25,297 bases of DNA, from the NCBI GenBank assembly GCA_020446285.1, contig JAGREZ010000055.1, positions 1 through 25,297 of the forward strand, read 5' to 3'. The notes below the pieces were generated by a model. It did not search any database. It was not told the origin of the DNA and saw only the letters and a list, made by a program, of their open reading frames with translations. The stretch comes from Geminicoccaceae bacterium. Lineage in GTDB: Bacteria > Pseudomonadota > Alphaproteobacteria > Geminicoccales > Geminicoccaceae. Within the stretch, counting starts at the first letter, position 1, and each line of letters opens with the position of its first letter. Both the position numbers and the translations under genes were made by a program. Positions 3,138 to 16,624 of the stretch are shown piece by piece.

Positions 3138-4250
3138 TTACCCATGATTGCGGGCGTGGTGCTGGCGAACGAAGCCATAGAACGCCGCCTCATAATCCTT
3201 CGGTGCGCGGTTCGGATCGTCGGCCAGCCAGGCGTCGTACTCGGCCTGGAGCATGTAGACATCCCAGCCGGGGAAATCGTGCCGGATGCGCGCGATCGTG
3301 GTCTCGGAGAGGGCGCGTAGTCCGAACAGTGGCAAGGGTGCGGGAGGGGCCGTCGTGGAAGCACGCGACGCCTCCCGCGTTTTCCTTGATGCGGGTCTCG
3401 TCGTACCGTCGTACCCGTCCGCGAGCTCGCGGCGGATCATCCGCAGGACAGGCTCGCCGCGTCCGGTCTCGAGGCCAAGGTGGAAGCCGGGAATGTCGTT
3501 GCGCTTGATGATTGCCAGCATCTCGAACTTAAAGCGGCGGTAGGTCCCCTCCGCCCCGGATTTCTCGAACAGCGTCGGGAACGGGATGGCAAAGCCTCCC
3601 TCCCCTGCCCCACCCGCATGTTTGCGTGCCACGCGATAGAGCCACCGTTCCCGGCCGCCGGTGATCGAGAAATAGACCGGATCGATGGCGAGCAAGCCGC
3701 CATCCATCAGCAGCCCTTCGTAGAACCAGTCGGACAGGGTGAGCGTCATCCCCCGGCTCTGCTTGCCGTCCTCCTCCACGAGATCGGTCCAGCCCTCGAT
3801 CCAGCTGAACTGCCGCTGCTTCTTTCCCCGCTTCACCCGGATGTTGGTGACGATGGTGGTGGATTGCAGGCGGCCGAGCGCCTCACGTAGGAGCTGGTAT
3901 TGCCTGCCGCCGGTCTCGCGGCCGATGGTCTTCAGGAGATCGTAGGGATGAAAGGAAAGCGTGCGCGGGAGGTCGTTGTCGCCGCGCTTGCGCCGGTCGT
4001 TCATCACCGATGCGGCCCAGATCAGGATATCCGCATCCCAGATGGTCGCCATCCCGAACTCCTGGTTCGGGAAGACGTTGACGAACACCTCGCCGTTGGG
4101 GCTCGTGTACTCGATGGGCTTCAGGCGCTTGCGCTTGGCCAGGCTGAAGAAGGGCCGCTCCATCGTCTCCCGCTGATCGCGCAGCGGCAGATCGGCCACG
4201 TAGGGAACGAAGAGATCGAACTGCGAATCGGGATGGCGGCGGGCGGACAT
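3138..4250 (-). CDS. repA: Plasmid replication initiator RepA (RPA family)
   Basis: 370 residues from ATG 4250, which overlaps the stop of the recombinase gene as TGATG. Residues ~30-270 carry the features of the RPA initiator family: ERPFFSLAKRKR near 31, the FGMATIWDADILIWAAS block, LSFHPYDLL, and a Trp/Arg-rich TGGRERWLYRVARKH segment. The C-terminal ~80 residues (FPGWDVYMLQAEYDAWL, then AAFYGFVRQ) resemble the tail common in alphaproteobacterial members. RepA should bind the iterons at 2846-3111 and load host helicase with DnaA. A longer upstream frame exists but its first ~160 residues are an Arg-rich shadow of the recombinase gene. High confidence in the role; the plasmid incompatibility group cannot be set here. 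Confidence 0.9.
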   Translation of the reverse strand: MSARRHPDSQFDLFVPYVADLPLRDQRETMERPFFSLAKRKRLKPIEYTSPNGEVFVNVFPNQEFGMATIWDADILIWAASVMNDRRKRGDNDLPRTLSFHPYDLLKTIGRETGGRQYQLLREALGRLQSTTIVTNIRVKRGKKQRQFSWIEGWTDLVEEDGKQSRGMTLTLSDWFYEGLLMDGGLLAIDPVYFSITGGRERWLYRVARKHAGGAGEGGFAIPFPTLFEKSGAEGTYRRFKFEMLAIIKRNDIPGFHLGLETGRGEPVLRMIRRELADGYDGTTRPASRKTREASRASTTAPPAPLPLFGLRALSETTIARIRHDFPGWDVYMLQAEYDAWLADDPNRAPKDYEAAFYGFVRQHHARNHG

Positions 4251-4843
4251 CAGACCGCCTCCTTCCACATGCGTTCGGCGATCGACCGCTCCTCCGCACC
4301 GAGGGCGTTCGCATAGATGGCCGTCACCTCGAGCGTAGCGTGGCCCATCCATTTCGAGAGCATATTGAGCGGCACGCCGGAGATGATCGCCGCCACGCCG
4401 TAGCCGTGGCGCAATCCCTTGGGCGTGGCGTGCGGCCCGTCGGGGATGCCCGCCTCGCGCATCACGGCCTTGACCAGCCGCCATGCGTGGCTGCGGTGCC
4501 AGGGCCATAGCGGCTCCTCGTCGCCTAGTCCCTGACGCCGCTTCTGCTGCTCGCGGATGCCGTGCACCATATCGAGGCTGTCGAGGAGCGACGGCGGGAC
4601 GGGAACCGACCGAAAGACGCCCGTGCGCCGCTTCTTCAGGGTCTCGAACACGACGGCACGGCCGGAGAGATCGACGCGCCGGGGCGTGAGCGACAGCGCC
4701 TCGGAGATGCGGCAGCCGGTGAAATGAAGGACGCTGCATAGGGTCCGCACCGGGCGGTCAGCCCGGCTGGCGGCTGCCATGAAGGCGGCCCGCTCTTCAG
4801 CAGTGAGATAGAGGCGGTTTCCCTCAGGGTCGAAAAGGCTCAT
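4250..4843 (-). CDS. Short tyrosine recombinase/integrase, coupled to repA
   Basis: 197 residues from ATG 4843; a TTG at 4849 would add two. It has only the catalytic domain of tyrosine recombinases and no N-terminal core-binding domain. The active-site residues are visible: Arg45 in TGCRISEAL, Lys in the LKKRRTG hairpin, PKGLRHGYG with Arg145 (Lys replaces the usual His of HxxR), His168 in KWMGH, and the nucleophile Tyr177 in TAIYANA. The PKGLRHG form is, from memory, normal for a plasmid-borne alphaproteobacterial group, so it is not a defect. It overlaps repA by one base (TGATG) and is cotranscribed. Likely role: plasmid multimer resolution or recombination at sites such as the nearby inverted repeats; target unknown. 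Confidence 0.85.
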   Translation of the reverse strand: MSLFDPEGNRLYLTAEERAAFMAAASRADRPVRTLCSVLHFTGCRISEALSLTPRRVDLSGRAVVFETLKKRRTGVFRSVPVPPSLLDSLDMVHGIREQQKRRQGLGDEEPLWPWHRSHAWRLVKAVMREAGIPDGPHATPKGLRHGYGVAAIISGVPLNMLSKWMGHATLEVTAIYANALGAEERSIAERMWKEAV

Positions 4844-4993: not shown

Positions 4994-6445
4994 CTAGTCC
5001 TTTGAATGCAGTAGACGCTCTATCTCTGCCTCGGCAATATCTGCAAGTCTGTTCTCGTACTCGTCGGCTTCTGACCAAAGTGTAAACGCACGCTCTGCAA
5101 GTTCCGCTATTTGCTTTTCAGCGGTCGGCTGCAGCCTCGGGATTAACCACTCTTTCAGGTCTTCCACCTCAATGTGCGGAATACTGGACCCATATGCCAA
5201 GGCCTTAACTCGCGGTCTTCCCAAGACTGCATGATTTAGGACGACATAAAGGTAGCCCGAAAGCAGTGAGGAGCCCGGATCGATCCGAATAACATCATCA
5301 GATATAATTTTTTCCTCATGCTGCTTAGTCGCCATCGCCACAGATCCCAGCAGTCCGTACACTTGGCCGGACCGCGACATCATCAGCCAACCTGGCTGTA
5401 CAAACCCATTATACTTGTCGGATACCCCTGATGCAGAGATTCTCCTAGAATACTCGGGATTGAGCTCAAAGATTTGGGAACTATCGATTAGGTCTACTCC
5501 ATCTTCCGCAGGAATTCTTCTGAAGCGATTTGGTAACCAAACATCGCACCCGGCATCTCGAAGAGTCACCCAAGCTCTACATCCAGCTTTCAGATACTTT
5601 TCGAGTGCCGTCTTCTCCGGGTTGTGACTCCAAGCATCAAAGCGCCGACGCCCTCGGAATAGCACGTCTGATGCACGATTTGTGAAACCTGCATTATCAA
5701 AACTGACTTCTGCAGTCGGGAACTGTGCACTGAATTCCGCCTCCGCCTCAGTCATTTTTCGAGCGGCATGTACCCGGCATGTGATAACTTTCTGTGCGAT
5801 ATCATTACATAGGCGCAGTACGTCATTATCGGCAGGGTTCACTATTGGCAGCTCATCGATGTGATGGGTTTCAAGATGCTTGATAATATGTCCATACTGC
5901 GCCGCCTTCATCATCTCCCGTACCGTTGGGGCTCTGAGGTACGCATAAACCCATCCCCACCAATCTTGCTCATAAGGCTCAATTCGAAGAAGATCATGAG
6001 AGACAAGAATCTTATCGATCGTGGAATGTGCGAGGGTTGCCCGGCCGACGCTTCCCGAGCATGTCAGTAGAATTGTCCCCTCCTTCACGAACCGCTCCAC
6101 GTAGTCGCTCGTCCGATTAAGCGACAGCCACTTCCGTGGTACGGGACGAACATCGTAAACTTGGGTCGCGGCAAGGAACGGTGTTCCGAACTCAGGACTT
6201 ACCTGAATACCCTTCAACCGAGATGGCTGCCACGTTCGCGCCACATCGATCATTCTTGTCCAGCCCGCCCCCTTCGACTCAATAGCCAGACGTGTCCCAA
6301 ATCCACTTGCCAGAAAGTTATCAGCCTCCATGCGTCGTCCGCCGCTGAACAGTAGCGACGCGTGCAAAGACGCCGATTTAACCTTATGCCATGGCCACTC
6401 CTGGCGTGTCTCACGCGGCGGGGTTAGTCTTGCTCGTACAACCAT
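4994..6445 (-). CDS. Restriction-modification specificity subunit (HsdS-like)
   Basis: 483 residues from ATG 6445, overlapping the end of the nuclease-methylase gene by 22 bp; a later ATG at 6331 is possible. Two target-recognition halves are visible. The first is residues ~60-200, with GTPFLAATQVYDVRP, then TILLTCSGSVGRA and YGHIIKHLE. The second is ~265-455, with VQPGWLMMSRSGQVYG and AYGSSIPHIEVEDL. Each is followed by a conserved-type helix (~205-235 and ~455-480). The two-TRD build is that of S subunits that read a bipartite DNA target. GC is near 45% in 5401-5460, lower than the par genes it follows, suggesting acquisition. Last gene of the parA operon. Confidence 0.85.
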   Translation of the reverse strand: MVVRARLTPPRETRQEWPWHKVKSASLHASLLFSGGRRMEADNFLASGFGTRLAIESKGAGWTRMIDVARTWQPSRLKGIQVSPEFGTPFLAATQVYDVRPVPRKWLSLNRTSDYVERFVKEGTILLTCSGSVGRATLAHSTIDKILVSHDLLRIEPYEQDWWGWVYAYLRAPTVREMMKAAQYGHIIKHLETHHIDELPIVNPADNDVLRLCNDIAQKVITCRVHAARKMTEAEAEFSAQFPTAEVSFDNAGFTNRASDVLFRGRRRFDAWSHNPEKTALEKYLKAGCRAWVTLRDAGCDVWLPNRFRRIPAEDGVDLIDSSQIFELNPEYSRRISASGVSDKYNGFVQPGWLMMSRSGQVYGLLGSVAMATKQHEEKIISDDVIRIDPGSSLLSGYLYVVLNHAVLGRPRVKALAYGSSIPHIEVEDLKEWLIPRLQPTAEKQIAELAERAFTLWSEADEYENRLADIAEAEIERLLHSKD

Positions 6446-8400
6446 GACCGGAACGCCTGTGCAATTTGCAACGTGTTGTCGTCGATTACTTTCCGGCGCG
6501 TGCGTTGCTTTTTGTACACCGGCCTTCCATCCTCATACTCTTTCAGCGTCTCCTCGATCTCTTCGATTATCTCATTGCCTTTGCGATCACGCACGTAAGT
6601 AACATTACCTCGCTTGTCGTGCCCAATGTGGTTAGCTACTGCCATGAACACGTTGTAGTCGTTCATGCGCCTCGCCGCAGCCTCGACCGCGATTTCCTCC
6701 TCAGTCTTGCGCTGAAGCACAAGCACGCTGGTCTGCACGCTGACATGCGGCTGGAACGTATCGGGATGCAGGTCAATGCTAGCAAGCACACGGGTATGGC
6801 GCAGAATCCACTCGCGGACATAACCAAGCCCTGGCGAACCGAGTATCCCATCCGGCAATACAATTGCGCATTTGCCCGTGCCTGGCTTCAAAAACTTGAC
6901 GCACCGCTCAATAAAGAGGATTTCAGGTGGCTGGGACTTCTGAACCGCATCCGTCATAATCCATCTATCGGAGTCAACGTCGTAGCTCCAGTTATGCCCA
7001 AGGTCGTAGTCTTCGAGGACGGATGGTTCATCAATCGGAATTTTCGAACCGAACGGTGGGTTGGTAAAGAGAAGATCGACCTTGCCGAGAAGCTGACGCG
7101 CTCGTAGCTCCTCTTCCCACGTCGCGGGGCTTTTCAACGAATTCGCCTGATAAAGCCCTCCCGCTCCGTCATTATTCATTACCATGTTCATTTTTGAGGC
7201 TTTGACGAGGTTCGGATTGAGATCAAGGCCGATTATATGCGAGCGTGCGAAACGCTGAACGCGCTCGCGGCTGGCGGTTTCGGCGCGTTCAATATCACCC
7301 CATTTGCTGATTTCGGCGGCTCGGATTTTCTCAATAACGTAGTTCATCGCCGTAATGAGAAAGCCTCCCGTACCGCACGCCGGGTCAAGGATGACCTGCC
7401 GCTCACTCGGGTCCAGCATCGCCACCGCCATCTGGCAGATATTGCGCGGCGTGAAAAACTCTCCCCGATCGCCACGGAGGTTCGAGCCGACGATCTCTTC
7501 GTATGCCCGCCCTTTGACGTCAATGTCACTTTCTAGAAGCGAATACATCTGTAACTGGCTGACGATATAGGTAAGAACCGCCGGAGTAAGTTCGATAGTC
7601 TCATTTTTCCGAAAAATGGTTGGGTATTCTGCTTTCACCTCATCAAATAAGCTGTCAATGCGTTTACGTGCCTTGATATGGCCGTTCAGTCCATGACGCT
7701 CTTTTGACGTTGCGTAAAAGGCGACCTGATCTGATGTGCGTTCATCATGAATTTTGCAGAATATGAGCTTTAACAACTCCCAAAACGCCTCCGGCTTCTG
7801 CAGCCCTTGGTTACCTGCGATATAATTGTGGCAACGCCGGAATGCGAAAAGAAGCGCATCAGAAGACGCGGCCTTTAGCTGATCAAAACGCGGTCGCTCG
7901 GTCTCATCTTCGGTACGCCCCTTGCTAGGTATGTCGGGGATTTCTTCGAAGGCGATTTGCCCAGCGGTTTCCACCCGGCGGTAACAAAAGCGTTCCACAC
8001 CGTTGGTCCACATACCATAGGCTACATTCGGACAGGCAGCCATATAGCTCTGCAGTTGGCCAACGCCGTCCTTTCGGTCGGTGGACTTCACTTTCTGCGA
8101 TTTGCACTCGACAATAAGGCGCGCACGATCCTGTACATGCGCGTCCGCGGGGTCGAACACGACCAGGTCGGCGCGGGGCTTTCGAGAACCGAGGCGCAAG
8201 ATAAATTCGACAGCGATTTCAGATTTTTCGTAGCTGTACTCGCGAACCAGAGACTTGGCTATTTCCTGGCGGACATACTCTTCCGGCGTCTCGTTACGCT
8301 GAGTGGTTCCGTCAATGTAATCAAGGATTTTACCCTGCTGTACGATGACGGCCACTGGTTTAATAACTGATCCTTCTGCTTTCAGATCACGCAAAGCCAC
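6424..8400 (-). CDS. Nuclease-methylase fusion (HsdR-N-like domain + HsdM), BcgI-like
   Basis: 658 residues from GTG 8400, which has AGGGGA 6 nt upstream; GTG 8406 overlaps the upstream stop and is the alternative. The N-terminal ~150 residues have a PD-(D/E)XK nuclease pattern: Asp78 in KPRADLVVF and Glu98-x-Lys100 in LIVECKSQ, like the N-terminal domain of HsdR. Then follows a complete gamma-class N6-adenine methylase: GEFFTPR at 313-319, motif I DPACGTGGF at 339-347 and NPPF at 447-450. No helicase/translocase motor is encoded anywhere in the window. One polypeptide carrying cleavage and methylation, followed by a separate S subunit, is the arrangement of BcgI-type (type IIB) enzymes. Activity and sequence specificity are not known. 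Confidence 0.85.
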   Translation of the reverse strand: MALRDLKAEGSVIKPVAVIVQQGKILDYIDGTTQRNETPEEYVRQEIAKSLVREYSYEKSEIAVEFILRLGSRKPRADLVVFDPADAHVQDRARLIVECKSQKVKSTDRKDGVGQLQSYMAACPNVAYGMWTNGVERFCYRRVETAGQIAFEEIPDIPSKGRTEDETERPRFDQLKAASSDALLFAFRRCHNYIAGNQGLQKPEAFWELLKLIFCKIHDERTSDQVAFYATSKERHGLNGHIKARKRIDSLFDEVKAEYPTIFRKNETIELTPAVLTYIVSQLQMYSLLESDIDVKGRAYEEIVGSNLRGDRGEFFTPRNICQMAVAMLDPSERQVILDPACGTGGFLITAMNYVIEKIRAAEISKWGDIERAETASRERVQRFARSHIIGLDLNPNLVKASKMNMVMNNDGAGGLYQANSLKSPATWEEELRARQLLGKVDLLFTNPPFGSKIPIDEPSVLEDYDLGHNWSYDVDSDRWIMTDAVQKSQPPEILFIERCVKFLKPGTGKCAIVLPDGILGSPGLGYVREWILRHTRVLASIDLHPDTFQPHVSVQTSVLVLQRKTEEEIAVEAAARRMNDYNVFMAVANHIGHDKRGNVTYVRDRKGNEIIEEIEETLKEYEDGRPVYKKQRTRRKVIDDNTLQIAQAFRSWLYEQD

Positions 8401-8402
8401 GG

Positions 8403-8663
8403 TCACTCCCCTTCCCGCTCTAGCTTCTCGGCGATGGCTTCCATGATCCAAGTGGTGCGGGCTGTCGGGACGACGCGGGTCTGCACAGAGGCATCTACCT
8501 TCTCCAGCATGGCGGGCGGAAGCCGCAGCATCACGGGGATGAGCTTCTGCTTGCCGGTCGAGCTCCCCTCCCCTGCTACGCTGCCGCCTTTGTGGATCAG
8601 CGCATCAATATCGACGCTCGCGCCTTCGGATGCGGCCGGTTTCGGCTTGCGGCTGATAGCCAT
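8403..8663 (-). CDS. Ribbon-helix-helix partner of ParA (ParG/CopG-like)
   Basis: 86 residues, starting 1 nt after the parA stop. The N-terminal ~38 residues are flexible and Ala/Ser/Gly-rich. Residues ~40-84 (KLIPVMLRLPPAMLEKVDAS, then the TARTTWIMEAIAEKLE helix) fit a ribbon-helix-helix DNA-binding fold. A small RHH protein directly after a short ParA is the type Ib partition arrangement, in which the partner binds the centromere, represses the operon and stimulates the ATPase through its flexible tail. The 11-bp-phased GATATC arrays near by are its likely DNA sites (inference). Its stop overlaps a GTG start candidate of the restriction gene, so it is cotranscribed with it. Confidence 0.8.
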   Translation of the reverse strand: MAISRKPKPAASEGASVDIDALIHKGGSVAGEGSSTGKQKLIPVMLRLPPAMLEKVDASVQTRVVPTARTTWIMEAIAEKLEREGE

Positions 8664-8664
8664 G

Positions 8665-9339
8665 CTATTCGCCTACCGCTCTTAGGCGAGATATCTTCTC
8701 GCTATCGAAGACATATCTGTAAAGTAGCATCACCTCCTCGGTTGCCTTCGGGTCCTGAGGCTTCAGCTCGGTGACGGCAAATCCTTGGGCGGCGGCGTTG
8801 CCGAAAGCCTTGCGGGTGCCGAGCGGCGCATCGAGGAAGGTCAGCGCCTCGGTATCCTTCAGCACCTCGGCCGCCTCGTCATTGTCGTGGCCGCGAGGAT
8901 CGGTCCGGTTGAGGAAGGCATGAGCCCGCAGGCCTGCGTTGGCGGCCCGCATCTCGGTCACGAGCGTTCCCACCTTCTCCAGCGTCCACACATCGAAGGA
9001 CCGTGGCACGAAGGGCACGAGCAGCATATCAGCGACGGTCAGCGCCGCGCGTTGGCTCGTGGTGTCTCTGCCCCCGGTGTCGATGATGATGTCCTGGTAT
9101 TTCTGGCGGAGCCGCAGCGTCTCGGTACGGACGGCGGCACCGGTGAGCTTGATGCTGGTATAGCTCGGGGCCTCGGGCTGGCGTTCGTTGCGGAGAATGG
9201 TGAAGTCGCTTGCGGTCTCCTGGTCGTCGGCGTCAATCAGGAGCACGTCCCGTCCCTCGGCGGCGCGAATCACGGCGAGGTTGGTGGCGACAGTGGTTTT
9301 CCCAGAACCGCCTTTGATGCCTCCCACGACCACGATCAT
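8665..9339 (-). CDS. parA: ParA-family partition ATPase (short, type Ib)
   Basis: 224 residues from ATG 9339, with GGGGAT just upstream as ribosome site. Deviant Walker A KGGSGKTT at 9-16, A' motif LLIDADDQ at 33-40 and Walker B-type IIIDTGG at 84-90 are all intact. There is no N-terminal helix-turn-helix, so operon control should fall to the RHH partner encoded next. The protein would drive plasmid segregation with that partner and a centromere. It is the first gene of a run that continues into the restriction-modification genes. Its last ~13 codons contain a four-copy 11-bp array (8690-8728), and its promoter holds another (9342-9380). Confidence 0.9.
   Translation of the reverse strand: MIVVVGGIKGGSGKTTVATNLAVIRAAEGRDVLLIDADDQETASDFTILRNERQPEAPSYTSIKLTGAAVRTETLRLRQKYQDIIIDTGGRDTTSQRAALTVADMLLVPFVPRSFDVWTLEKVGTLVTEMRAANAGLRAHAFLNRTDPRGHDNDEAAEVLKDTEALTFLDAPLGTRKAFGNAAAQGFAVTELKPQDPKATEEVMLLYRYVFDSEKISRLRAVGE
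8690..8728. repeat. 11-bp-phased GATATC array inside the parA 3' end
   Basis: Hexamers start exactly every 11 bp on the plus strand: GATATC at 8690, GCTATC at 8701, CATATC at 8712 and AGTAGC at 8723. They are encoded in parA's C-terminal codons, directly before the RHH gene. The same phasing occurs at four intergenic places, so this is unlikely to be chance. Confidence 0.65.
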
Positions 9340-9341
9340 AC

Positions 9342-9380
9342 GCTATCCCCAAAGTATCGAGTTGATATCTCGACGATAGC
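9342..9380. repeat. 11-bp-phased GATATC array in the parA promoter
   Basis: GCTATC at 9342, AGTATC at 9353, GATATC at 9364 and GATAGC at 9375, each 11 bp apart, lie between the parA start codon and its probable promoter. One helical turn spacing and position fit an operator or centromere for the adjacent ribbon-helix-helix protein. Confidence 0.75.
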
Positions 9381-9491
9381 GGGGCGATTCTACCCGGCAA
9401 GGCGAATCGGACGAAGCAGGTTCCCTGCCCTCTCTGCCGGATGCTGGTGTGGCAGCAATGCACCTCGTATCCGAAAGGGCGATCCTCACGA

Positions 9492-9519
9492 GATACTTTA
9501 TAGATATCTTATCGATATC
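9492..9519. repeat. 11-bp-phased GATATC array upstream of the WGR gene
   Basis: GATACT at 9492, GATATC at 9503 and GATATC at 9514, 11 bp apart, lie just upstream of a TAGAAT at 9534-9539 that could be the -10 of the WGR gene. The same factor that binds the parA-side array probably controls this divergent gene. Confidence 0.7.
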
Positions 9520-9545
9520 CCTCCGCTACCTGCTAGAATGCTCTC

Positions 9546-9890
9546 ATGTCGGAGCTGTGCCATATCGCGCTGGTAGCGGTCCACCCGGAACGTAACGTCC
9601 GGCGGACCTATCGCCTGGCGCTCGGTCGCGACCTGTTCGGGGATTGGACGGTCGAGCTCCGCTATGGCCGCATGGGGCAGCGTGGACAGGAACGGCGCAT
9701 CACCTGTGACAGTCTCGAGGAAGCGCGCCGCGTGGCGCGCGCCTATCTGCGTCGGCGCGCATCGGCCCCGCGCCGGATCGGCTGCCCGTACCGAATCGTG
9801 AGCATCGACCCCGGCCAGACTGATCTCCTGTCGCCTGTCTTGCCTTCTGGCTTCCTTCCTAAAAAGGGGTGGGTGGGCGGGCTCTCCTGA
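9546..9890 (+). CDS. Stand-alone WGR-domain protein
   Basis: 114 residues. Residues ~18-75 match the WGR domain: an RTYRLALG strand, FGDW with Trp34, YGRMGQRG with Gly41-Arg42, then the SLEEARRVARAYLRRR helix. WGR domains bind nucleic acid ends or nicks in PARPs and also occur as short stand-alone proteins on bacterial plasmids, where the role is unclear. The last ~30 residues are proline-rich and look unstructured. It is transcribed away from parA across a 206-bp region with two GATATC arrays, implying shared control with the partition operon. A 9-bp perfect hairpin lies just after the stop. Confidence 0.75.
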   Translation: MSELCHIALVAVHPERNVRRTYRLALGRDLFGDWTVELRYGRMGQRGQERRITCDSLEEARRVARAYLRRRASAPRRIGCPYRIVSIDPGQTDLLSPVLPSGFLPKKGWVGGLS

Positions 9891-9898
9891 AAGGAAGT

Positions 9899-9919
9899 CC
9901 GGCGGCCAGGGGCCGCCGG
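9899..9919 (+). terminator. Perfect 9-bp GC hairpin after the WGR gene
   Basis: CCGGCGGCC (9899-9907), loop AGG, GGCCGCCGG (9911-9919). It begins 9 nt after the WGR stop codon. There is no T run, so it may be a transcript-stabilising or Rho-assisted terminator between two convergent genes. Confidence 0.5.
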
Positions 9920-9922
9920 TGC

Positions 9923-9972
9923 CTTATCTCTTCGCTTGCTGCAAGATATCTCTGGCATATCGTACAAGTATC
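9923..9972. repeat. 11-bp-phased GATATC array between convergent genes
   Basis: CTTATC at 9923, a weak GCTTGC at 9934, GATATC at 9945, CATATC at 9956 and AGTATC at 9967, all in 11-bp register. This gap lies between the 3' ends of the WGR and ArdC-like genes, so it cannot be a promoter operator for either and is a good candidate for a centromere. Confidence 0.7.
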
Positions 9973-9992
9973 TTGACGCCATCGGCGGGATG

Positions 9993-10931
9993 TCACGCCG
10001 CGAGGCGCTGTTCGGGTTCCGGGGGCTCGTCCTCGATGCCGCTTCCCTGTCGTGCATGGAGGAAATCGACGGCGCGTTGCGCGTGGCTGGCAGCGATGAA
10101 GACGGCCTTCTTGTCCTTCTTCAGCAAATCGAGCCATGAGGCGATGTAGGACGCGTGGTCCTCGCGCGGCTCGAGATAGAGGCCAAGGTCGGCGGCGAGG
10201 AACGCGGCTCCCATCTCGGCGACGAGCTCTTCCTGCGCATACCCTTCATCTCCCCAGCGTTTCCGGCCGAACTCGCGGGCGAGGCGGGACGGGTGGCGCG
10301 TCCAGTGGATGCACTCATGCCCGAGGGTGGCATAGTAGCTTTCGGCGTCCCTGAAACTCTCGAAGGGCGGCATCTGCACGAAGTCCGGCTCAATGGCATA
10401 GAAGGCGCGGTTGCCGCCGTGCCGCACGTCCGCGCCAAGTGAGGCGAAGAAGGTATCGGCATGGTCGAGCCGGGCGAGGGGGTCGAGTTGGGGCGCGGCG
10501 GTCGCGTAGAAGTGGGGAGGGAGGCCGTCCACCTGTTCCACATTGAAGACGGTGTAGTGTTTCATGAAGAAGATTTCCCGTTCCACCTCCTCGCCGCTGT
10601 CGGCGGTCTCGGTCTTGCGGAACTTGTCGGCATAGGCGATCGCGGTGCCGTGCTCGCCCTTGCGGACCTGCCCACCTAATTCTGCCGCCTGCCGATAGGT
10701 CATCCAGATGGGGGCGCTGTAGCCTTTGGCTTCGGCGGCCATCCAGAGCATCACGACGTTGATGCCGCGATAGGGTTTCCCGCTCGCACGCAGGGGCCGC
10801 GTGATGCGTCCGGCCAGGTGCTCGGCGTTCCACGGTTTCGCCCAGGGACGCGTGCCAGTCTCAAGCTGCTCGATGATGGCGCTGGTGATGCGGGTGTAGA
10901 TGTCGGCGCGAGTAGGGGAGTGCGTGGTCAT
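9993..10931 (-). CDS. ardC: ArdC-like antirestriction protein (zincin)
   Basis: 312 residues from ATG 10931, preceded by GAGGGAGG; an earlier GTG at 10949 overlaps the upstream stop. The N-terminal ~130 residues (DIYTRITSAIIEQLETG, RPWAKPW, YRGINVVML, GEHGTAIAYADK) match the ssDNA-binding domain of ArdC. The C-terminal part is a metalloprotease-like domain with HECIH at 205-209 and EELVAEMGAAFL at ~235, which supplies the third metal ligand. ArdC proteins protect incoming plasmid DNA from host type I restriction early after transfer. It follows the 10946-11590 gene in the same unit. The plasmid thus carries both an antirestriction protein and its own restriction system. Confidence 0.9.
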   Translation of the reverse strand: MTTHSPTRADIYTRITSAIIEQLETGTRPWAKPWNAEHLAGRITRPLRASGKPYRGINVVMLWMAAEAKGYSAPIWMTYRQAAELGGQVRKGEHGTAIAYADKFRKTETADSGEEVEREIFFMKHYTVFNVEQVDGLPPHFYATAAPQLDPLARLDHADTFFASLGADVRHGGNRAFYAIEPDFVQMPPFESFRDAESYYATLGHECIHWTRHPSRLAREFGRKRWGDEGYAQEELVAEMGAAFLAADLGLYLEPREDHASYIASWLDLLKKDKKAVFIAASHAQRAVDFLHARQGSGIEDEPPEPEQRLAA

Positions 10932-10945
10932 GGTCCGGCCCTCCC

Positions 10946-11590
10946 TCACACTGCCTGCCGGTCGCGGTAGCGCCGCGTGATGGGGACGAGCCGTCCTCTC
11001 AGTTCGCGGCGGATGTAGCCCGTGAGGATTTCAACGGCGAAGCTGTCGGGGGTGAGGCCGGGTGCGGGTTCGGCGAAGATGCCGAGGAAACTGCGATATC
11101 CCGTCTCGCTGATGAAGGGCCGGTCGAAATCCACGGCGTGAGCGGCGAAGCCGGGCCAGAAAGCGCTACTGGCTCCGATGCCGAATACCCCGTCCATCTC
11201 GATGCGCACGCGGGTACCGGCGGCGGTGACGATGAAACTGCCCTTCTGTCCCCAGATGGGCACCGCACCGGGCGCGGCTTCGGTCTCACGGGCGAGGACG
11301 TATCCGGGGCTGTCTTGGTCGGCGAGAATACCCGCCTTGCCGCCGTTCAGCTTCACGGCGAGCCGGTGCGCTTCGGCGCGGCAGAACATCACCTCGTCCA
11401 CCTGTCCCGCCAGCATCGCGGCGTGGTGTTCCTCCAGCAGTTCGGCGAAGAAGGGCAGGGCGTCCGTCATCGTGGCGGGGAGATGCCGGGTCTCGTCCTC
11501 CAGCTTGCGAGCGTGGTTGGTCTGGTCGGCATCGAGCAGCAGGGCGTCGAACCCGAGTTGCTGCGTGGTGGGGTGGCTGGTCTGTCTCAT
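10946..11590 (-). CDS. Hypothetical protein accompanying ArdC
   Basis: 214 residues from ATG 11590, with AGGAG 9 nt upstream; the longer frame upstream is GC-rich non-coding sequence. It is soluble by appearance. Residues ~35-95 are helical (ALPFFAELLEEHHAAMLAGQ, then MFCRAEAHRLAVKLNGGK); the C-terminal part has a beta-rich GSFIVTAAGTRVRIEMDG segment, and the protein ends with a basic helix. I recall similar genes beside ardC on alphaproteobacterial plasmids, but no function. Its stop overlaps the alternative GTG of the ArdC gene, so the two form one unit. Confidence 0.7.
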   Translation of the reverse strand: MRQTSHPTTQQLGFDALLLDADQTNHARKLEDETRHLPATMTDALPFFAELLEEHHAAMLAGQVDEVMFCRAEAHRLAVKLNGGKAGILADQDSPGYVLARETEAAPGAVPIWGQKGSFIVTAAGTRVRIEMDGVFGIGASSAFWPGFAAHAVDFDRPFISETGYRSFLGIFAEPAPGLTPDSFAVEILTGYIRRELRGRLVPITRRYRDRQAV

Positions 11591-11914
11591 CGGCTTGTCT
11601 CCTAGTTGAATTTCCGGTTGCGACTGCAACCGGACTAGGCCCGCGCCGATGAGCGGGGGGATGCGGTCAAGGCCGGAGTCGGGGCAGGGGGGACCACCCG
11701 GATTCCGTGAGGAATTTGGGGGATGCCCTGACGCAGCCCGAAGGGTTGCCTTGACCGCCTTGGGGGCCGCAGGCCCCCTTATCTCAGAAGGAAGAAGCCC
11801 GGCGCAGCCGGAGCCGCTGATCGTTCTCGCGCGAGGGATCGTCACCAGAGGGCCGCGACGCGACAGCGGCGCGGGGAGGGGACCGAGTAGAGCCCGGCCC
11901 GAAGGGCGCGCCAG
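11591..11914. other. GC-rich intergenic region with a strong hairpin
   Basis: No convincing gene. A perfect hairpin GGGGGCC/GGCCCCC (11762-11778, loop GCA) is followed on the plus strand by TTATC. It separates the ImmA-like gene, which ends at 11915, from the gene starting at 11590, both on the minus strand, so it probably combines a terminator and the promoter of the ArdC unit. I could not fix promoter boxes. Confidence 0.45.
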
Positions 11915-12712
11915 TCATCGCGCTCGGCGTGCCGACGGCTCCCATTCCTCCAGCATGTCAGCGTCCGTGATCACGAGAAGCGTCAGAATTTCGTCATCCG
12001 CTGTGCGGATGGTCTGCTCTTGTAGCTCGTATCTTTCCGCTTCCAGCCGCTCAAACCAGGCATCCGCCCCGATTTTATGCGGCATCCGATCATCAGGTTG
12101 CCGCCCGAACAGGACCCCGAACGCAAAGCTCTCAGAATCAAGGTCGTCGCGGGGAAACCAGCGGCTTGGCACGTCGGGGGATCGTGCGAACCACTTGCGC
12201 CCGTTCGGGCCGTGGCAGACCAGAAGGGCAGGGGAGTGACGCGCTTCGATCAGGCGGATGGCAGCAGCGGGACGGCTGACATCGAACGCTTCCACGATTG
12301 CTGCGACGGTTTGGAAGGTTAGTTTGCGATGCGCACGCGCGATGGGATCGAACAGATACCGGGGCATGAGAAGATCAGCCGCATACGTGTCGGCGACTTT
12401 CTCAAAGGAGGAGGCATGCTGTGCGGCCGCCCCGATCTCGCTGGCGCGGCAAACCAGCAGACGGCCGCGATGATAGTGCCAGTGGCCCAGTTCGTGGGCG
12501 AGTGAGAATCGACGACGCCGGGGAGAACTACGGTCGTTGACGGTGATGATCGCCCGGTCACCATTGCCGGTGATGCGCGCCTCGCATCCGTCAAGTGGGC
12601 GATAGCGGACGCGCGCGCCGCGCGTCCAGGCAATGGCTTCCAGGTCAATCTCGCTTGGTTCGGTTACTCCGAGCTCCTGCAGAAGGCGTTCTGCTGCTGT
12701 CAATGCCTTCAC
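11915..12712 (-). CDS. ImmA/IrrE-family metallopeptidase
   Basis: 265 residues. HELGH at 73-77 followed by WHYH, and a third-ligand segment EKVADTYAADLLMP beginning at Glu104, are the marks of ImmA/IrrE zinc peptidases. Residues ~20-70 show the usual N-terminal fold (IDLEAIAWTRGARVRYRPL). The C-terminal ~110 residues are an extra domain (WFPRDDLDSESFAFGVLFG onward) of unknown role. The ATG overlaps the stop of the preceding gene by 4 bp (ATGA). Known relatives cleave repressors or regulators to switch mobile elements (ImmA of ICEBs1) or stress responses (IrrE). Here the likely partner is encoded just upstream, next to a sigma-like protein. Confidence 0.85.
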   Translation of the reverse strand: MKALTAAERLLQELGVTEPSEIDLEAIAWTRGARVRYRPLDGCEARITGNGDRAIITVNDRSSPRRRRFSLAHELGHWHYHRGRLLVCRASEIGAAAQHASSFEKVADTYAADLLMPRYLFDPIARAHRKLTFQTVAAIVEAFDVSRPAAAIRLIEARHSPALLVCHGPNGRKWFARSPDVPSRWFPRDDLDSESFAFGVLFGRQPDDRMPHKIGADAWFERLEAERYELQEQTIRTADDEILTLLVITDADMLEEWEPSARRAR

Positions 12713-13149
12713 GCGTTATCGTCCGTCTGATCCGGCGGTGGCTGAACGCCCAACTCTTCAAGGTCCTCGAGCATGCTGAGGACGTCGCTATCGGAGAGAC
12801 CTTCGCCCTTCCGGGCTGCCAATGTGAGTTTGCGAGCGGTCTCTGGATCGTTAGCGACGATGCGTTCGAGTCTCCGGCGAGCTTCCGCCGGGTCGAGAGA
12901 TATCACCACGGCAGACCGCTGACGGTCCTGCACGATAGCGGACCTGGCGGCGGCAAGCCGCGCCTTCCCGGCCGAAGCGACCGTCTTCTCGAACATCGCC
13001 CGCATGTTCGCGGCGATGGCGGAAGGGTCGTCGTTGTCTTCTCTGACCTCGGCCAGAATGTCCTGATCGGACGTCTCGAGGAGGTCTTCAACCAGGGCAT
13101 CGGCCAGCCGGTTGAGCGCGTCTTGGTCGCTCTGGGGTTTTCCGGTCAT
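12709..13149 (-). CDS. Hypothetical helical protein between sigma-like and ImmA-like genes
   Basis: 146 residues from ATG 13149, which overlaps the sigma-like gene's TGA as ATGA; an ATG at 13158 would add three. It is acidic overall, all-helical and without membrane segments. A central basic region (~60-100, DPAEARRRLERIVANDPETARKL) is flanked by acidic stretches (DLLETSDQDILAEVREDNDD near the N-terminus, DVLSMLEDLEELG near the C-terminus). No recognised family. Overlap on both sides makes it the middle member of a three-gene unit; anti-sigma factor or protease substrate are plausible roles but only inferred from position. Confidence 0.7.
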   Translation of the reverse strand: MTGKPQSDQDALNRLADALVEDLLETSDQDILAEVREDNDDPSAIAANMRAMFEKTVASAGKARLAAARSAIVQDRQRSAVVISLDPAEARRRLERIVANDPETARKLTLAARKGEGLSDSDVLSMLEDLEELGVQPPPDQTDDNA

Positions 13150-13748
13150 GGCTTCCATCCATTCGGGTATGCCTTGTCGATGCGGCGGCGAATCAGTTTC
13201 CGCTTCGAGGCAAAGGCGGTTTTGTCCAGGTCGGTGAGGGCACGCAGCTCCTCGCCGTCCATTCCTTCCATGATGCCTTCGACCATCGTCTCGGCTGTCA
13301 CGTCGTCGGCAAAAAGGGCGAGGACCGCCTGCTTAATTCGCCCTGATTCCTGAGAGCTGGCTAACTGGTCCTCGATCGTCGGCGTCCGGTCGCTCACCAC
13401 ATCGAAAGTCTCAGCATCCCCGGTGCGGGGGACGAGTCTGAGATCCGTTGGTTCCTTTTCAGCCCTGGCCTCTCGTCGGCTGTGTGCCTTCGCGCCGTCG
13501 GAGGCGATGCTGCGCATGACCCAAGCGATGAACCGGACGACATCGACATTGCGCGGACAATGCCGAGTGCCGTCGAATGCGCGCACCCATGCTTCCTGTA
13601 GGAGATCGTCCGGCGAGAGAGGACAGCCTCGGCAGTAGTAAGCAGCGACCTTGCGAAGCCGGTTCCATCCAGCGTCGGACATCGCGCGGATCGCGTCGGC
13701 GAGTTCGGCTGGCGTAAGGTGCGCCACCTCTGGTTGGCCAGATGTCAT
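13146..13748 (-). CDS. Sigma-70-like (ECF-type) protein
   Basis: 200 residues from ATG 13748, with GGAAAGGGGGG about 10 nt upstream; an ATG at 13811 lies inside an inverted repeat and has no ribosome site. Residues ~27-92 fit sigma region 2: LRKVAAYYCRG, then PLSPDDLLQEAWVRAFDG and VRFIAWVMRSIASDGAKAHSRR, the usual order of the core-binding and -10 helices. The tail ~150-197 (EELRALTDLDKTAFASKRKLIRRRI) could be a region 4-like helix-turn-helix. It heads an overlapping operon with an unknown protein and an ImmA-like protease. If active it would turn on plasmid or host genes in response to the protease; targets are unknown. Confidence 0.75.
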   Translation of the reverse strand: MTSGQPEVAHLTPAELADAIRAMSDAGWNRLRKVAAYYCRGCPLSPDDLLQEAWVRAFDGTRHCPRNVDVVRFIAWVMRSIASDGAKAHSRREARAEKEPTDLRLVPRTGDAETFDVVSDRTPTIEDQLASSQESGRIKQAVLALFADDVTAETMVEGIMEGMDGEELRALTDLDKTAFASKRKLIRRRIDKAYPNGWKP

Positions 13749-13799
13749 GCGGTTAGCGCCCCCCTTTCCAACCTCCAATGCGCCATCGGCTGATGCGTT

Positions 13800-13821
13800 C
13801 GGACATCGCATGGGATGTCCG
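13800..13821. promoter_or_regulatory. Inverted repeat upstream of the sigma-like operon
   Basis: CGGACATC (13800-13807) and GATGTCCG (13814-13821), perfect 8-bp arms with a 6-nt centre. It lies 52 bp upstream of the sigma-like start in the divergent gap to the Cas2-like gene, so it is a candidate operator for either direction. Confidence 0.5.
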
Positions 13822-13909
13822 AGCCGGGGTCGTGTCGGCGCATAGGAGGATGATGCCCCTGCATACTCGCCAATTCCGGCGGTCGGCAGCGGCGGAAAGG
13901 ACCTGAACG

Positions 13910-14185
13910 ATGATTTACGCTGTGAACTACGACTTGAAGAAGCCGGGGCGCGATTACGCGGCGCTCTACGACGCCATCAAGGGCTGTGGCTCTTGGTGGC
14001 ATCACCTCGGCTCGACCTGGCTGGTCGATACCAGTTTGACCGCTGACGGCATCTGGCAGCGGGTTTCGCCGCACATCGACCAGAACGACCGTATGCTGAT
14101 CATCGGCGTCACCAAGGACAAGAGTGGGTGGCTGCCGAAGGAGGCATGGGACTGGATTAACAGCCGCCGCGCTGCGGCGGCCTGA
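13910..14185 (+). CDS. Small Cas2/VapD-like protein (often labelled SinR family)
   Basis: 91 residues from ATG 13910, with GGAAAGGA about 8 nt upstream. The opening MIYAVNYDLKKPGRDYAALY, the GSWWHHLGSTWLVDT strand pair and NDRMLIIGVTKDKSGWLP describe a ferredoxin-like fold of the Cas2/VapD size and pattern. From memory, close relatives are found widely in bacteria under the label SinR family, without proven function. No CRISPR repeats or other cas genes are in the window, so a spacer-acquisition role is unlikely; a nuclease or toxin-like role is possible. It is followed by a hairpin and the 82-residue gene. Confidence 0.75.
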   Translation: MIYAVNYDLKKPGRDYAALYDAIKGCGSWWHHLGSTWLVDTSLTADGIWQRVSPHIDQNDRMLIIGVTKDKSGWLPKEAWDWINSRRAAAA

Positions 14186-14186
14186 A

Positions 14187-14213
14187 AAAGGGGAGCCGGT
14201 CCGGCTCCCCTTT
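14187..14213 (+). terminator. 11-bp hairpin between the Cas2-like gene and its neighbour
   Basis: AAAGGGGAGCC (14187-14197), loop GGTCC, GGCTCCCCTTT (14203-14213). A perfect stem beginning right after the stop codon, with A run before and T run after, works as an intrinsic terminator in both directions. As the next gene starts 19 bp later, it may act as an attenuator that lowers downstream expression. Confidence 0.7.
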
Positions 14214-14231
14214 CCACATTTGGAGAAGAGT

Positions 14232-14480
14232 ATGATTGAAGTGACGTTTGAGATTAATGGTCGGAAGGTGCGCCCTGGTGAGATCGGTGACGTGCTCAAG
14301 CAGGCCATGTTCGAGGAAATCCGGGACGATCTGGTACGGAAGGTCGGCAGCATCCGAGACCCTGAAACCGGCGAGCGTCCGAAGCTGCGCGTCAAAGGGC
14401 GGAACCTGCAGAACCTCTCCATCGAGGTCGAAGGTTCACCCCATCTCATCGAAGAGGTGAAGCGGCGGCTGGGCACATAG
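14232..14480 (+). CDS. Small hypothetical protein downstream of the Cas2-like gene
   Basis: 82 residues from ATG 14232, with GGAGAAG 4 nt upstream. It has an alpha/beta pattern: MIEVTFEINGRKV strand pair, a helix DVLKQAMFEEIRDDLVRKVG, a Pro/Lys linker (ETGERPKLRVKG), a NLSIEVEGS strand and a final helix HLIEEVKRRL. Similar short proteins beginning with a predicted strand and annotated only as hypothetical exist, to my memory. It is separated from the Cas2-like gene only by the hairpin and probably shares its promoter. It ends 13 bp before the 3' end of the toxin gene that converges on it. Confidence 0.7.
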   Translation: MIEVTFEINGRKVRPGEIGDVLKQAMFEEIRDDLVRKVGSIRDPETGERPKLRVKGRNLQNLSIEVEGSPHLIEEVKRRLGT

Positions 14481-14493
14481 CTCCGCGATGGCA

Positions 14494-14913
14494 TTATCCC
14501 TGCCACGGATTGATCACCGTCACCCCGCAGCCGTCGAACCCTCCGACGTCGCGGGTGACGACAGCGGCCCCTTCGGTCAAGGCGATAGCCGCGATCATGC
14601 CGTCCTCGGCCGACAGGGGCCGTCCGGCCTGGACACGTGCGACCCGCAGATTCGCATACGCATCGGCGGCATCGGCGTCGAAAGGCAGGACGCGGGACTG
14701 AAATTCCTGGGCGAACATCGCTTGTGCCGCCCGCTCCAGACGTTGACGCTTGGCTCCCTCAGGCAGCCGCCGGATGCCGTAGAAGATTTCGCTGCGGGAG
14801 ACCGCCGTGGTGAACATCGCCTCGGCAGGACACTCGCGTAGCCAGGCGGCGACGGAAGGGTGCGGCTCCTCCTTCATCACCTCGGACAGAACGTTGGTGT
14901 CGAAGACGTACAT
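14494..14913 (-). CDS. vapC: PIN-domain toxin (VapC/FitB type)
   Basis: 139 residues from ATG 14913, whose first base overlaps the antitoxin stop (TGATG); a GTG at 14916 is the alternative. The PIN acidic residues are in place: Asp5 in FDTNVLSE, Glu42 in SRSEIFYGI, Asp104 in SAEDGMIAAIA and Asp122 in VVTRDV. The sequence YVFDTNVLSEVMK and the overall length are typical of FitB-like members. It would be an RNase blocking translation when freed from the antitoxin. With the antitoxin it forms a plasmid addiction module next to the mobilization genes. Confidence 0.93.
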   Translation of the reverse strand: MYVFDTNVLSEVMKEEPHPSVAAWLRECPAEAMFTTAVSRSEIFYGIRRLPEGAKRQRLERAAQAMFAQEFQSRVLPFDADAADAYANLRVARVQAGRPLSAEDGMIAAIALTEGAAVVTRDVGGFDGCGVTVINPWQG

Positions 14914-15149
14914 CACTCGAAGGTCGGCGGCTCACGACCGGGCAGGCGAGGGGGCAGCTCGAGCTCAACATCGCCGATACCAGCGAAATGCCGCCGCAGC
15001 CGGTCGAACGCATTGGCAGGCTCGGTCGTCAGGCTCTCGTTCAGGATGCGGCGCGCCTCCTCTTCCATCGAATGGCCGTGGCGCGCGGCCCGAACGCGCA
15101 GGCGCTCTTTCACCGCCGGATCGAGTTTGCGGATTGTCAGGTTGGCCAT
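14913..15149 (-). CDS. vapB: Ribbon-helix-helix antitoxin (VapB/FitA type)
   Basis: 78 residues from ATG 15149. MANLTIRKLDPAVKERLRVR followed by a helix with HGHSMEEEARRIL is the classic FitA-type RHH DNA-binding N-terminus; the Pro/Glu-rich tail (residues ~55-78) would wrap the toxin. The longer upstream frame is not coding. A good promoter (-35 TTGCCT, -10 TATATT) lies 40 bp upstream and carries a GCATATGC palindrome that could be the autoregulatory operator. Antitoxin first, toxin second, overlapping by one base, is the standard order. Confidence 0.93.
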   Translation of the reverse strand: MANLTIRKLDPAVKERLRVRAARHGHSMEEEARRILNESLTTEPANAFDRLRRHFAGIGDVELELPPRLPGREPPTFE

Positions 15150-15188
15150 GGGTGGCTCGGATTGAGGCTCATGAGGACGCATGCGTTG

Positions 15189-15217
15189 AATATAGCATAT
15201 GCATGCAATGAAGGCAA
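15189..15217 (-). promoter_or_regulatory. Promoter of the toxin-antitoxin operon
   Basis: On the minus strand, TTGCCT (15217-15212) and TATATT (15194-15189) are 17 bp apart. The spacer and the flanking -10 region hold GCATATGC and GCATGC palindromes, fitting repression by the RHH antitoxin. Confidence 0.65.
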
Positions 15218-15279
15218 ATAGACGCGGGATAGGAAAGGATAAACGGCAGCAACAGACGGGAAATCCCTCTGCCACCAAG

Positions 15280-15307
15280 ATATCTATGAGATATCTCGTA
15301 GCTGTCT
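15280..15307. repeat. 11-bp-phased GATATC pair between toxin-antitoxin and relaxase genes
   Basis: GATATC at 15280 and at 15291 are exactly 11 bp apart, with a weak GCTGTC at 15302 in register. The site is 63 bp upstream of the toxin-antitoxin -35 box and 100 bp before the candidate oriT hairpin, about 5.3 kb from the other arrays. Confidence 0.55.
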
Positions 15308-15439: not shown

Positions 15440-15487
15440 TCAATCCGGCCTGCTGAAGCGAACGAACCGATGGGAAAGGCCTCGGGC

Positions 15488-16624
15488 ATGGCGGTGGTGA
15501 ACGAAACGACGCTGCACACGCGCATCAAGCCGATGAAACGATCCGAGGGTCGCAACGCGGTGCGCTCGGCCGCCTATCGCTCCGGCTCCAAACTCACCGA
15601 TGGACGCACCGCCGAGACGTGGGACTACACCAACCGGCGCGGTGTCGAGCATGCCGAGATCATCACACCGGACGAAGCGCCCGCCTGGGCCATGGATCGG
15701 CACCAGCTCTGGAACCGGGCCGAGCAGGCGGAGCGGCGGAAGGATAGCCAGGTCGCCCGCGAATACGAATTCCTGTTCTCCTACGACCTTACGCCGGAGC
15801 AGCGCATCGGCATCGCGCGTGAGGTGGCGCGGGAGGAGTTCGTCGCGCGCGGCATGGTCGCCGATGTCGCCATCCATCGCTACGGGCGCGCCTGGAAGCT
15901 CGGGCAGGAAGGGACGGGGGAGACGATCGCCAAATGGCGGTCCTGGGGTCTGCCGTTCCTCGATGAGGCGTCGTCCGCCCGCACCGAAACGCAGCACGTC
16001 ATGGTCACCAGCGGACGCGGCGGCGAGAACAAGGCCTACTACCTTTTCCAGCCGCACTGCCATGTGCAGCTCACCATGCGGCCCATCGCGGCCGATGGGG
16101 AGGGGTTCGAGAAGAAGTCGGCCGGGAGCGTCGCGCGAAGCTGGAACGACCAGAAGACCTATGACGGCATCCGCGAGCGGACGGCTGCCCGGCAGAACCA
16201 TGTGCTCGAGGAAACCGCCTCCGTGCGGCGGCTCGATCATCGTTCTTACGAGGAGCGGCGCGTCGAGGCCGAAGGCCTGGCGCTCGAGGCACGCGATGCG
16301 GGACGGCACGAGGAGGCAGCGCATTACGAGGCTCGGGCGCGGTATTTCACCCGCGATCCGCAGCCTTATCTCGGCTTCGCCCTGCGGCTGAAGGAACTGA
16401 CGGGGCGCATCCGTGAGCGCTTCTCGCAATGGGTGGCGGTCAAGCACAAGAACCGCATCCGCGACTATGTCGATCTGATGGAGCGCGAGGAGCCGCACGC
16501 GGTGGAAGAGCGGGTCGGCGCATTCCTTGCCCGCACGGCGCGGTCGCTCGGCCTTGATCGCCTCTATTCGGCCTTGGTGCCGGAACCGGAACGGCCAGCA
16601 CGGGAGACGGGTCTTGAAAGATAG
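15488..16624 (+). CDS. MobA/MobL-family relaxase (MOBQ type)
   Basis: 378 residues from ATG 15488, with GGGAAAGG upstream; an ATG at 15470 would add six residues. SEGRNAVRSAAYRSGSKL at 19-36 matches the N-terminal relaxase motif, with Tyr30 as likely nicking residue. GVEHAEIITPDEAP and LWNRAEQAERRKDSQ follow as in this family. ADVAIH with His130 and FQPHCHVQLTMRPI with His190 and His192 give the metal-binding histidines. After residue ~200 comes a charged helical tail. The enzyme would nick the plasmid at oriT, probably at 15407-15439, and lead the strand into a borrowed transfer channel. At this length there is no primase domain. The next gene overlaps it. Confidence 0.9.
   Translation: MAVVNETTLHTRIKPMKRSEGRNAVRSAAYRSGSKLTDGRTAETWDYTNRRGVEHAEIITPDEAPAWAMDRHQLWNRAEQAERRKDSQVAREYEFLFSYDLTPEQRIGIAREVAREEFVARGMVADVAIHRYGRAWKLGQEGTGETIAKWRSWGLPFLDEASSARTETQHVMVTSGRGGENKAYYLFQPHCHVQLTMRPIAADGEGFEKKSAGSVARSWNDQKTYDGIRERTAARQNHVLEETASVRRLDHRSYEERRVEAEGLALEARDAGRHEEAAHYEARARYFTRDPQPYLGFALRLKELTGRIRERFSQWVAVKHKNRIRDYVDLMEREEPHAVEERVGAFLARTARSLGLDRLYSALVPEPERPARETGLER

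Follow-up and report, generated by a model that had tools for sequence, protein, structure and literature searches.

Phased GATATC-like hexamer arrays as putative partition sites of a ParA and small ParB system on a Geminicoccaceae contig

Contig JAGREZ010000055.1 of a Geminicoccaceae bacterium (GenBank assembly GCA_020446285.1) carries a parA gene, followed by a gene for a protein of 86 amino acids, and five runs of GATATC-like hexamers spaced by 11 bp. The window analysed here is the complete contig of 25,297 bases. The locus raises the question of which protein these runs serve, and whether they act as a centromere, as operators of the adjacent genes, or as both. Judging from the sequence, the runs are very probably the parS sites (centromere and operator) of a partition system composed of a type Ib-like ParA and a small ParB resembling the ribbon-helix-helix (RHH) proteins.

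Hexamer arrays of the contig and their 11-bp register

The five arrays are listed below with the position of each unit and, in brackets, the number of its bases that match GATATC (maximum 6).

8690..8728: array 1, GATATC 8690 (6), GCTATC 8701 (5), CATATC 8712 (5) and weak AGTAGC 8723 (3); in the parA 3′ end (dual-coding), with 27 bp to the start of ParB
9342..9380: array 2, GCTATC 9342 (5), AGTATC 9353 (4), GATATC 9364 (6) and GATAGC 9375 (5); directly upstream of the parA start, at a distance of 3 bp; presumed operator and centromere
9492..9519: array 3, GATACT 9492 (4), GATATC 9503 (6) and GATATC 9514 (6); stops 27 bp short of the WGR gene, whose promoter-like −35 element it overlaps
9923..9972: array 4, CTTATC 9923 (4), weak GCTTGC 9934 (3), GATATC 9945 (6), CATATC 9956 (5) and AGTATC 9967 (4); in the gap where the WGR and ArdC-like genes converge
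15279..15306: array 5, GATATC 15279 (6), GATATC 15290 (6) and GCTGTC 15301 (4); flanked by two genes that diverge from it, for a FitA-like antitoxin (start at 130 bp) and a MobQ-like relaxase (start at 164 bp)

Arrays 1–4 form a 1.3-kb cluster around the ParB, ParA and WGR genes, and array 5 stands alone, 5.3 kb from the cluster. Only two of the 19 units (8723 and 9934) are weak. The units share the core TATC, with T in 19, A in 17, T in 15 and C in 18 of the 19 units. The first-pass annotation had placed arrays 1–4 correctly; the fifth lies one base to the left of the positions given there (15280/15291/15302).

The contig was scanned for groups of three GATATC-like hexamers at a fixed lag, with a score of at least 15 of 18 bases. 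Seven such three-unit groups were found at lag 11, all of them within the five arrays, and the other 16 lags in the range 6–22 gave two in total (one each at lags 8 and 22, the latter being a multiple of 11). Shuffling that preserved dinucleotides, repeated 200 times, gave on average 0.005 groups at lag 11 and never more than 1, which bears out the five arrays as real features. The pattern is also concentrated on this contig within its own assembly (4.2 Mb, 619 contigs), where it accounts for seven of nine forward matches. The remaining two matches carry three mismatches each, and a search of the surrounding stretches gave no relative of the window ParB. One of these stretches, on contig C18, contains a ParA-like and a ParB-like gene, of the chromosomal type by reading of the genes.

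Arrays at the parAB loci of relatives

ParA relatives were drawn from annotated plasmids and from a genome collection in which each species is represented once. The resulting set of 41 parA loci, the window included, comprises 359,774 bases; two of the loci (L019 and L020) are near copies. At these loci, 113 three-unit groups were found at lag 11 vs. one in total at the nine other lags (7–10 and 12–16). A GATATC array is present at 27 of the 41 loci, and each of these 27 has at least one array in the interval from −286 to +1080 relative to the parA start. The recurrent sites are upstream of parA (in many relatives), inside the parA 3′ end and downstream of parB. Phased runs are thus neither equally frequent in shuffled sequence nor out of register in the relatives, the two points open to computation on which the first-pass annotation had said its proposal could fail.

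The same scan of 17 replicon sequences (418,041 bases) gave 50 arrays at lag 11 vs. one at seven other lags. Of these arrays, 33 lie at parAB and 17 elsewhere, the latter in eight of the 17 sequences and including the window's own arrays 3–5. One of the 17 (G006:C4 11148) is inside a long open frame and may be due to chance. The other nine sequences have no array away from parAB, and two of these nine, L015 and L022, have no array at all.

The arrays track parAB in relatives from several phyla. The ParAB family ranges over Alpha- and Gammaproteobacteria, Cyanobacteria, Deinococcota, Cytophagales and others. ParB relatives are present in one of 30 further genomes of the same order (33% identity, E 2.4e-6) and in three of 384 further genomes of the same class. 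In the order of Dyadobacter (Cytophagales) the ParB family was observed in 44 of 390 genomes, with seven matches in one genome (G1209); it was also observed in five of the 386 genomes drawn from the phylum of G009 (Cyanobacteria) and in one of 111 from the phylum of G425, the centre genomes being included in all these counts. The search of viral contigs gave no ParB relative and 13 loci with ParA relatives. On one of the viral-collection contigs (L113, 13.6 of 39.9 kb covered), a ParA 70% identical to the window ParA stands beside two terminase-like genes and a replication-initiator-like gene, with GATATC arrays at 8069, 9704 and 13542. This contig is likely a phage-plasmid.

Array 1 lies within coding sequence. 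An array group begins at an identical parA base (offset 622) in 12 of the 41 loci, and 19 of 25 hand-chosen loci share their best 11-bp register close to the end of parA. The dual-coding array encodes the ParA tail LYRYLFDI..IS or a similar one, and shared coding ancestry alone could keep a register in parA. However, in three loci with a shorter ParA (L016, L024 and L028) the units continue in phase beyond the stop codon, and array 1 of the window uses the codons AGA and ATA, which are rare in the 18 window genes (5.1% and 6.4% of their synonymous sets). In addition, the parA 3′ end shows AACGTT at 11 bp in L111 and GACGTC at 12 bp in L114, in each case the word and step of the system to which it belongs. 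These three features argue for selection on the DNA itself at the parA 3′ end.

ParA, ParB and the pitch of the arrays

The two proteins of the system are encoded on the reverse strand of the window:

8403..8663, − strand: ParB candidate, 86 amino acids; presumed RHH protein and presumed array binder
8665..9339, − strand: ParA, Walker-type ATPase, 224 amino acids (PF01656, 1.2e-14; NF041546, 146.3 bits; phrog_164)

ParA has its ATPase motif at the N terminus and lacks an N-terminal extension, as in the small ParAs of type Ib/RHH-ParB ParABS systems. The parB gene begins 2 bp after parA, an order retained in the relatives, so that a small ParB is encoded downstream, and array 2 lies upstream of parA; both traits belong to the same type of system. 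The 86-residue ParB has no match in Pfam or NCBIfam. A protein search with it gave 131 relatives (120 listed), as proteins without DNA context. An alignment of 40 ParB proteins features an N-terminal RKP, a KGGSV motif, a strand V-x-L-R-L and a C-terminal W..EAI.EKLERE; we take the strand to resemble that of Arc. Two ParBs of annotated plasmids (L099 and L104; family HMM E about 4e-9) match the Pfam family RHH_1 at 0.0039 and 0.01, below the gathering score. The ParB fold is likely RHH. Since the arrays lie at parAB in the relatives and their word and pitch vary with the ParB lineage, the small protein beside ParA would be their natural binder. The first-pass annotation had named it as the candidate; this choice gains from both observations, and the RHH label rests on weak sequence matches.

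The variation in word and pitch was found in a blind search of parAB loci with 64 palindromic hexamers at nine lags. Most clear loci gave GATATC at 11 bp, and others AACGTT at 11 or 12 bp. The pitch was then compared with ParB in a set of 112 distinct ParBs from 122 loci, four loci having no ParB (L041, L107, L124 and L125) and the others being dropped as identical proteins. Blind calls at 11 or 12 bp were obtained for 54 of the 112 loci and at other lags for two, both with a short loop (L104 at 15 and L135 at 8). In the control, with one shuffle per region, three of 112 loci were called, none at 11 or 12.

The pitch follows the length of the inter-helix loop of ParB, counted between the strand residue and the conserved W. 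With at most 27 residues, 30 loci have a pitch of 11 bp and none a pitch of 12 bp; with at least 28 residues, two loci have 11 bp and 22 have 12 bp (Fisher p 3.5e-13 for the 54 called of 112 loci). The split was unchanged when score threshold and word set were varied in six combinations. The two discordant loci, Cardinium L103 and L138, have 28 residues and a pitch of 11. On the ParA tree the loop class requires three changes and the pitch two; between one (starred branches) and three (all branches) independent pairs are available, and hence no statistical power beyond the deep split. The association is mostly one deep phylogenetic split, with Deinococcota and Cytophagales on one side. The one clear case of an independent pitch switch is L114, a viral-collection contig with a long loop and a 12-bp array among 11-bp lineages, although its placement on the tree is weakly supported. 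The word is associated with the strand residue, which is Q in five and K in three of the AACGTT-called loci and Q in none of the 20 GATATC-called loci; this association is also limited by phylogeny.

These patterns suggest, as a tentative lead rather than a result, that ParB may work as a molecular ruler. Residues of its strand in contact with DNA would pick the hexamer (GATATC, AACGTT or GACGTC), and the length from the strand to the second helix would set the step, 11 bp when short and 12 bp when long. New centromeres could then arise by changing word or step separately, the parA 3′ end being rewritten each time as both coding sequence and centromere. In a Hymenobacter monticola plasmid (L105), a long, near-perfect 12-bp tandem array follows parB, and the scanned region contains 154 exact self-matches of six bases at lag 12.

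Function of the arrays

In the proposed mechanism, one dimer of the 86-residue RHH-like ParB would sit on each hexamer. With a step of 11 bp, adjacent dimers would face almost the same side of the helix and could pack against each other, presumably with cooperative binding, into a patch able to engage ParA. Repression of the par operon would probably be a further effect of the array at the parA promoter. The other arrays, at the parA 3′ end, the WGR gene flanks and the relaxase region, would be mainly extra centromere sites, and those that overlap promoters, as array 3 does and array 5 perhaps does, may in addition dampen the adjacent gene.

Known partition systems provide partial parallels. 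KorB of plasmid RK2 is both a partition protein and a regulator acting at dispersed sites; it is a large helix-turn-helix-type ParB and not a small RHH protein. The Agrobacterium plasmid pTAR is reported to combine a small ParB with short palindromes arrayed near parA, their spacing being close to one helical turn. Small RHH ParBs are described as binding repeat arrays and repressing par (PMC9499535, PMC5016525, PMC3235114), and the window ParB may do the same by analogy. RHH-ParB systems, which bind centromeric repeat arrays, are reported to be enriched on plasmids smaller than 50 kb (PMC13245405), and this fits the 25-kb contig.

A close parallel is the ParCAB system of pMF1 from Myxococcus fulvus, whose small ParB footprints an upstream iteron, represses par and gel-shifts six sites spread over the plasmid with the core AGATGTCT (PMC3235114). 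As described there, pMF1 resembles the window system in having a small ParB gene after parA, sites upstream and downstream of par as well as dispersed ones, and a palindrome-like core, AGATGTCT, close to that of the window. Dispersed sites are common to both systems, with array 5 lying 5.3 kb off the cluster and 17 of the 50 arrays in the replicon sequences lying away from parAB. However, the pMF1 repeats have an 8-bp pitch (record EU137666) vs. 11 bp in the window, and no GATATC or GAYRTC array at lag 11 was found in that record. The pMF1 ParB has no convincing relation to the window ParB (hhalign probability 1.9%; family HMM 6.4 bits with filters off), the ParAs are 31% identical, and pMF1 has an extra ParC. 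The remark in the first-pass annotation that it knew of no described partition system with this motif therefore holds for the pitch and has to be qualified for the core.

In pSM19035 (delta/omega), an RHH ParB on runs of short repeats serves both the centromere and the operators of several genes (PMC9499535). The omega sites are contiguous, non-palindromic 7-bp heptads, in contrast to the 6-bp palindromic words every 11 bp of the window; no three-unit GATATC group at lag 7 was found in the window and the 41 loci, the omega word itself not being part of that search. The parABS of mycobacteriophage RedRock, related to systems in extrachromosomal prophages, has two parS loci, each with an 8-bp motif in eight direct repeats (PMC7157519). 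By description alone, it shares with the window the presence of several parS loci of short repeats and differs in having eight direct 8-bp motifs per locus. No 11-bp GATATC array at a ParA-RHH system was found in the literature, a search in which the coverage of subscription journals was poor and which is weak evidence of absence. As far as the literature was searched, the arrays very probably represent a conserved, uncharacterised set of partition sites.

The genes and the site next to the outer arrays are the following:

9512..9539, + strand: promoter-like site of the WGR gene (consensus match), overlapped by array 3
9546..9890, + strand: WGR-domain gene (PF05406, 8.1e-9), possible regulated neighbour
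15470..16624, + strand: MobA/MobL (MobQ-like) relaxase gene (PF03389, 1.1e-47; NF041496, 194.3 bits with a cut-off of 200), possible regulated neighbour

Two promoter-like sites were found in the region of array 3 and the WGR gene vs. 0.5 expected. Array 5 and the relaxase gene are adjoined by a pair of genes for a PIN-domain toxin and a FitA-like RHH antitoxin (14494–15149, − strand). A restriction-type N6 methylase gene with an HSDR_N domain (6424–8451, − strand) has its first listed start inside the end of the ParB gene, and its true start is probably later. Elsewhere in the window, a protein encoded at 13146–13811 (− strand) matches sigma-70 region 2 (E 8.8e-6), and a tandem repeat with a 22-bp unit in 3.7 copies (2845–2927) lies past the 3′ end of the RPA rep gene (3138–4739, − strand) and possibly represents rep iterons. 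The contig ends (1–425 and 21861–25214, − strand) carry an open frame at one and a large open frame rich in GGxGxD-like repeats at the other. No exact terminal overlap of 16–200 bp was found, and circularity is therefore not shown.

Several observations weigh against reading the arrays as parS sites of an RHH-type partition system. At the scan threshold, 14 of the 41 parA loci have no GATATC array, and the blind search gave no phased palindrome of any kind at five of 40 loci (L011, L014, L015, L022 and L030); 56 of the 112 ParB loci received no pitch call. ParA scores below the cut-off of NCBIfam NF041546 ParA_partition (146.3 vs. 180 bits). Pfam RHH_1 is matched weakly by three of the 40 ParB family members (best E 0.003, up to 0.05), and the best solved-structure match of ParB is a CopG-family protein with E 0.038. 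Finally, the searches turned up no close relative of the plasmid as a whole, against which the conservation of arrays 3–5 at their genes could be judged. The DNA search matched 50 annotated plasmid records, and the 20 listed match within parA only (64.8–70.8% identity); the 18 records with WGR relatives are all below 60% identity, and the relaxase relatives among the 25 matches listed have 32.8–34.8%.

The alternatives fare less well. Chance runs of an AT-rich palindrome might be suspected from the palindromic word and the imperfect units, but they are refuted by the shuffles and by the lag controls in the window, the 41 parA loci and the 17 replicon sequences, and their probability is negligible. 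Phased direct repeats are typical of iterons. The layout of the arrays resembles such repeats, and in G006:C4 and G004:C136 a rep gene of the RPA type is close to arrays, so that replication iterons bound by the Rep (RPA) protein were considered. In the window, however, about 4 kb separate the rep gene from the array closest to it, and the presence of arrays at parAB does not depend on which genes are adjacent. This very improbable reading was dropped on the grounds of location and tracking of parAB. Binding by another factor, such as the WGR protein, the FitA-like antitoxin or a host nucleoid protein, is improbable as well. It would suit the position of array 5, 130 bp from the antitoxin gene, and of array 3, beside the WGR gene, but neither the tracking of parAB across several phyla nor the variation of word and pitch among ParB lineages fits it, the latter being unexplained by a shared host factor.

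The first-pass annotation had proposed a plasmid-wide regulon, and the dispersal of the arrays lends this idea some substance. ParB would then be chiefly a transcription factor acting on parA, the WGR gene, the relaxase and antitoxin genes and others, coordinating maintenance and transfer. This proposal is compatible with a centromere and does not exclude it; as the chief role of the arrays, it appears rather unlikely. Arrays 2, 3 and 5 are upstream of gene starts, with array 3 overlapping the promoter-like −35 element of the WGR gene. Arrays lie about 100 bp upstream of a TIGR02391 gene in two plasmids of Methylobacterium (pMNOD05 and pM44602, in the latter across the record start), and the array at G006:C4 27938 abuts the start of a DUF3800 gene (genes on the G contigs by simple ORF calling). 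RHH ParBs are also reported to control partition and copy-number genes (PMC9499535). On the other hand, array 1 is inside parA, and array 4 lies between convergent gene ends, as do the arrays at G006:C4 29816 and 31120 and G004:C136 6391; an array between convergent genes cannot be an operator of its neighbours. More than half of the replicon sequences have no array away from parAB, and the extra arrays follow no particular genes across plasmids, TIGR02391 in the two Methylobacterium plasmids excepted. Because the extra arrays occur both at gene starts and between convergent genes and track no gene, extra centromere sites, some doubling as operators, fit better than a regulon. Single arrays may still act as operators, in view of the overlap of array 3 with the promoter-like −35 element.

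Read as parS sites, the arrays would give an uncharacterised ParAB family a readable centromere. Since a simple scan for phasing is enough to locate the sites, the partition sites, and perhaps the incompatibility groups, of many unstudied plasmids and phage-plasmids would be predictable from sequence. A centromere overlapping the parA coding sequence would be an unusual constraint on a partition gene, and the existence of both 11-bp and 12-bp lineages makes the packing of ParB dimers along DNA directly testable.

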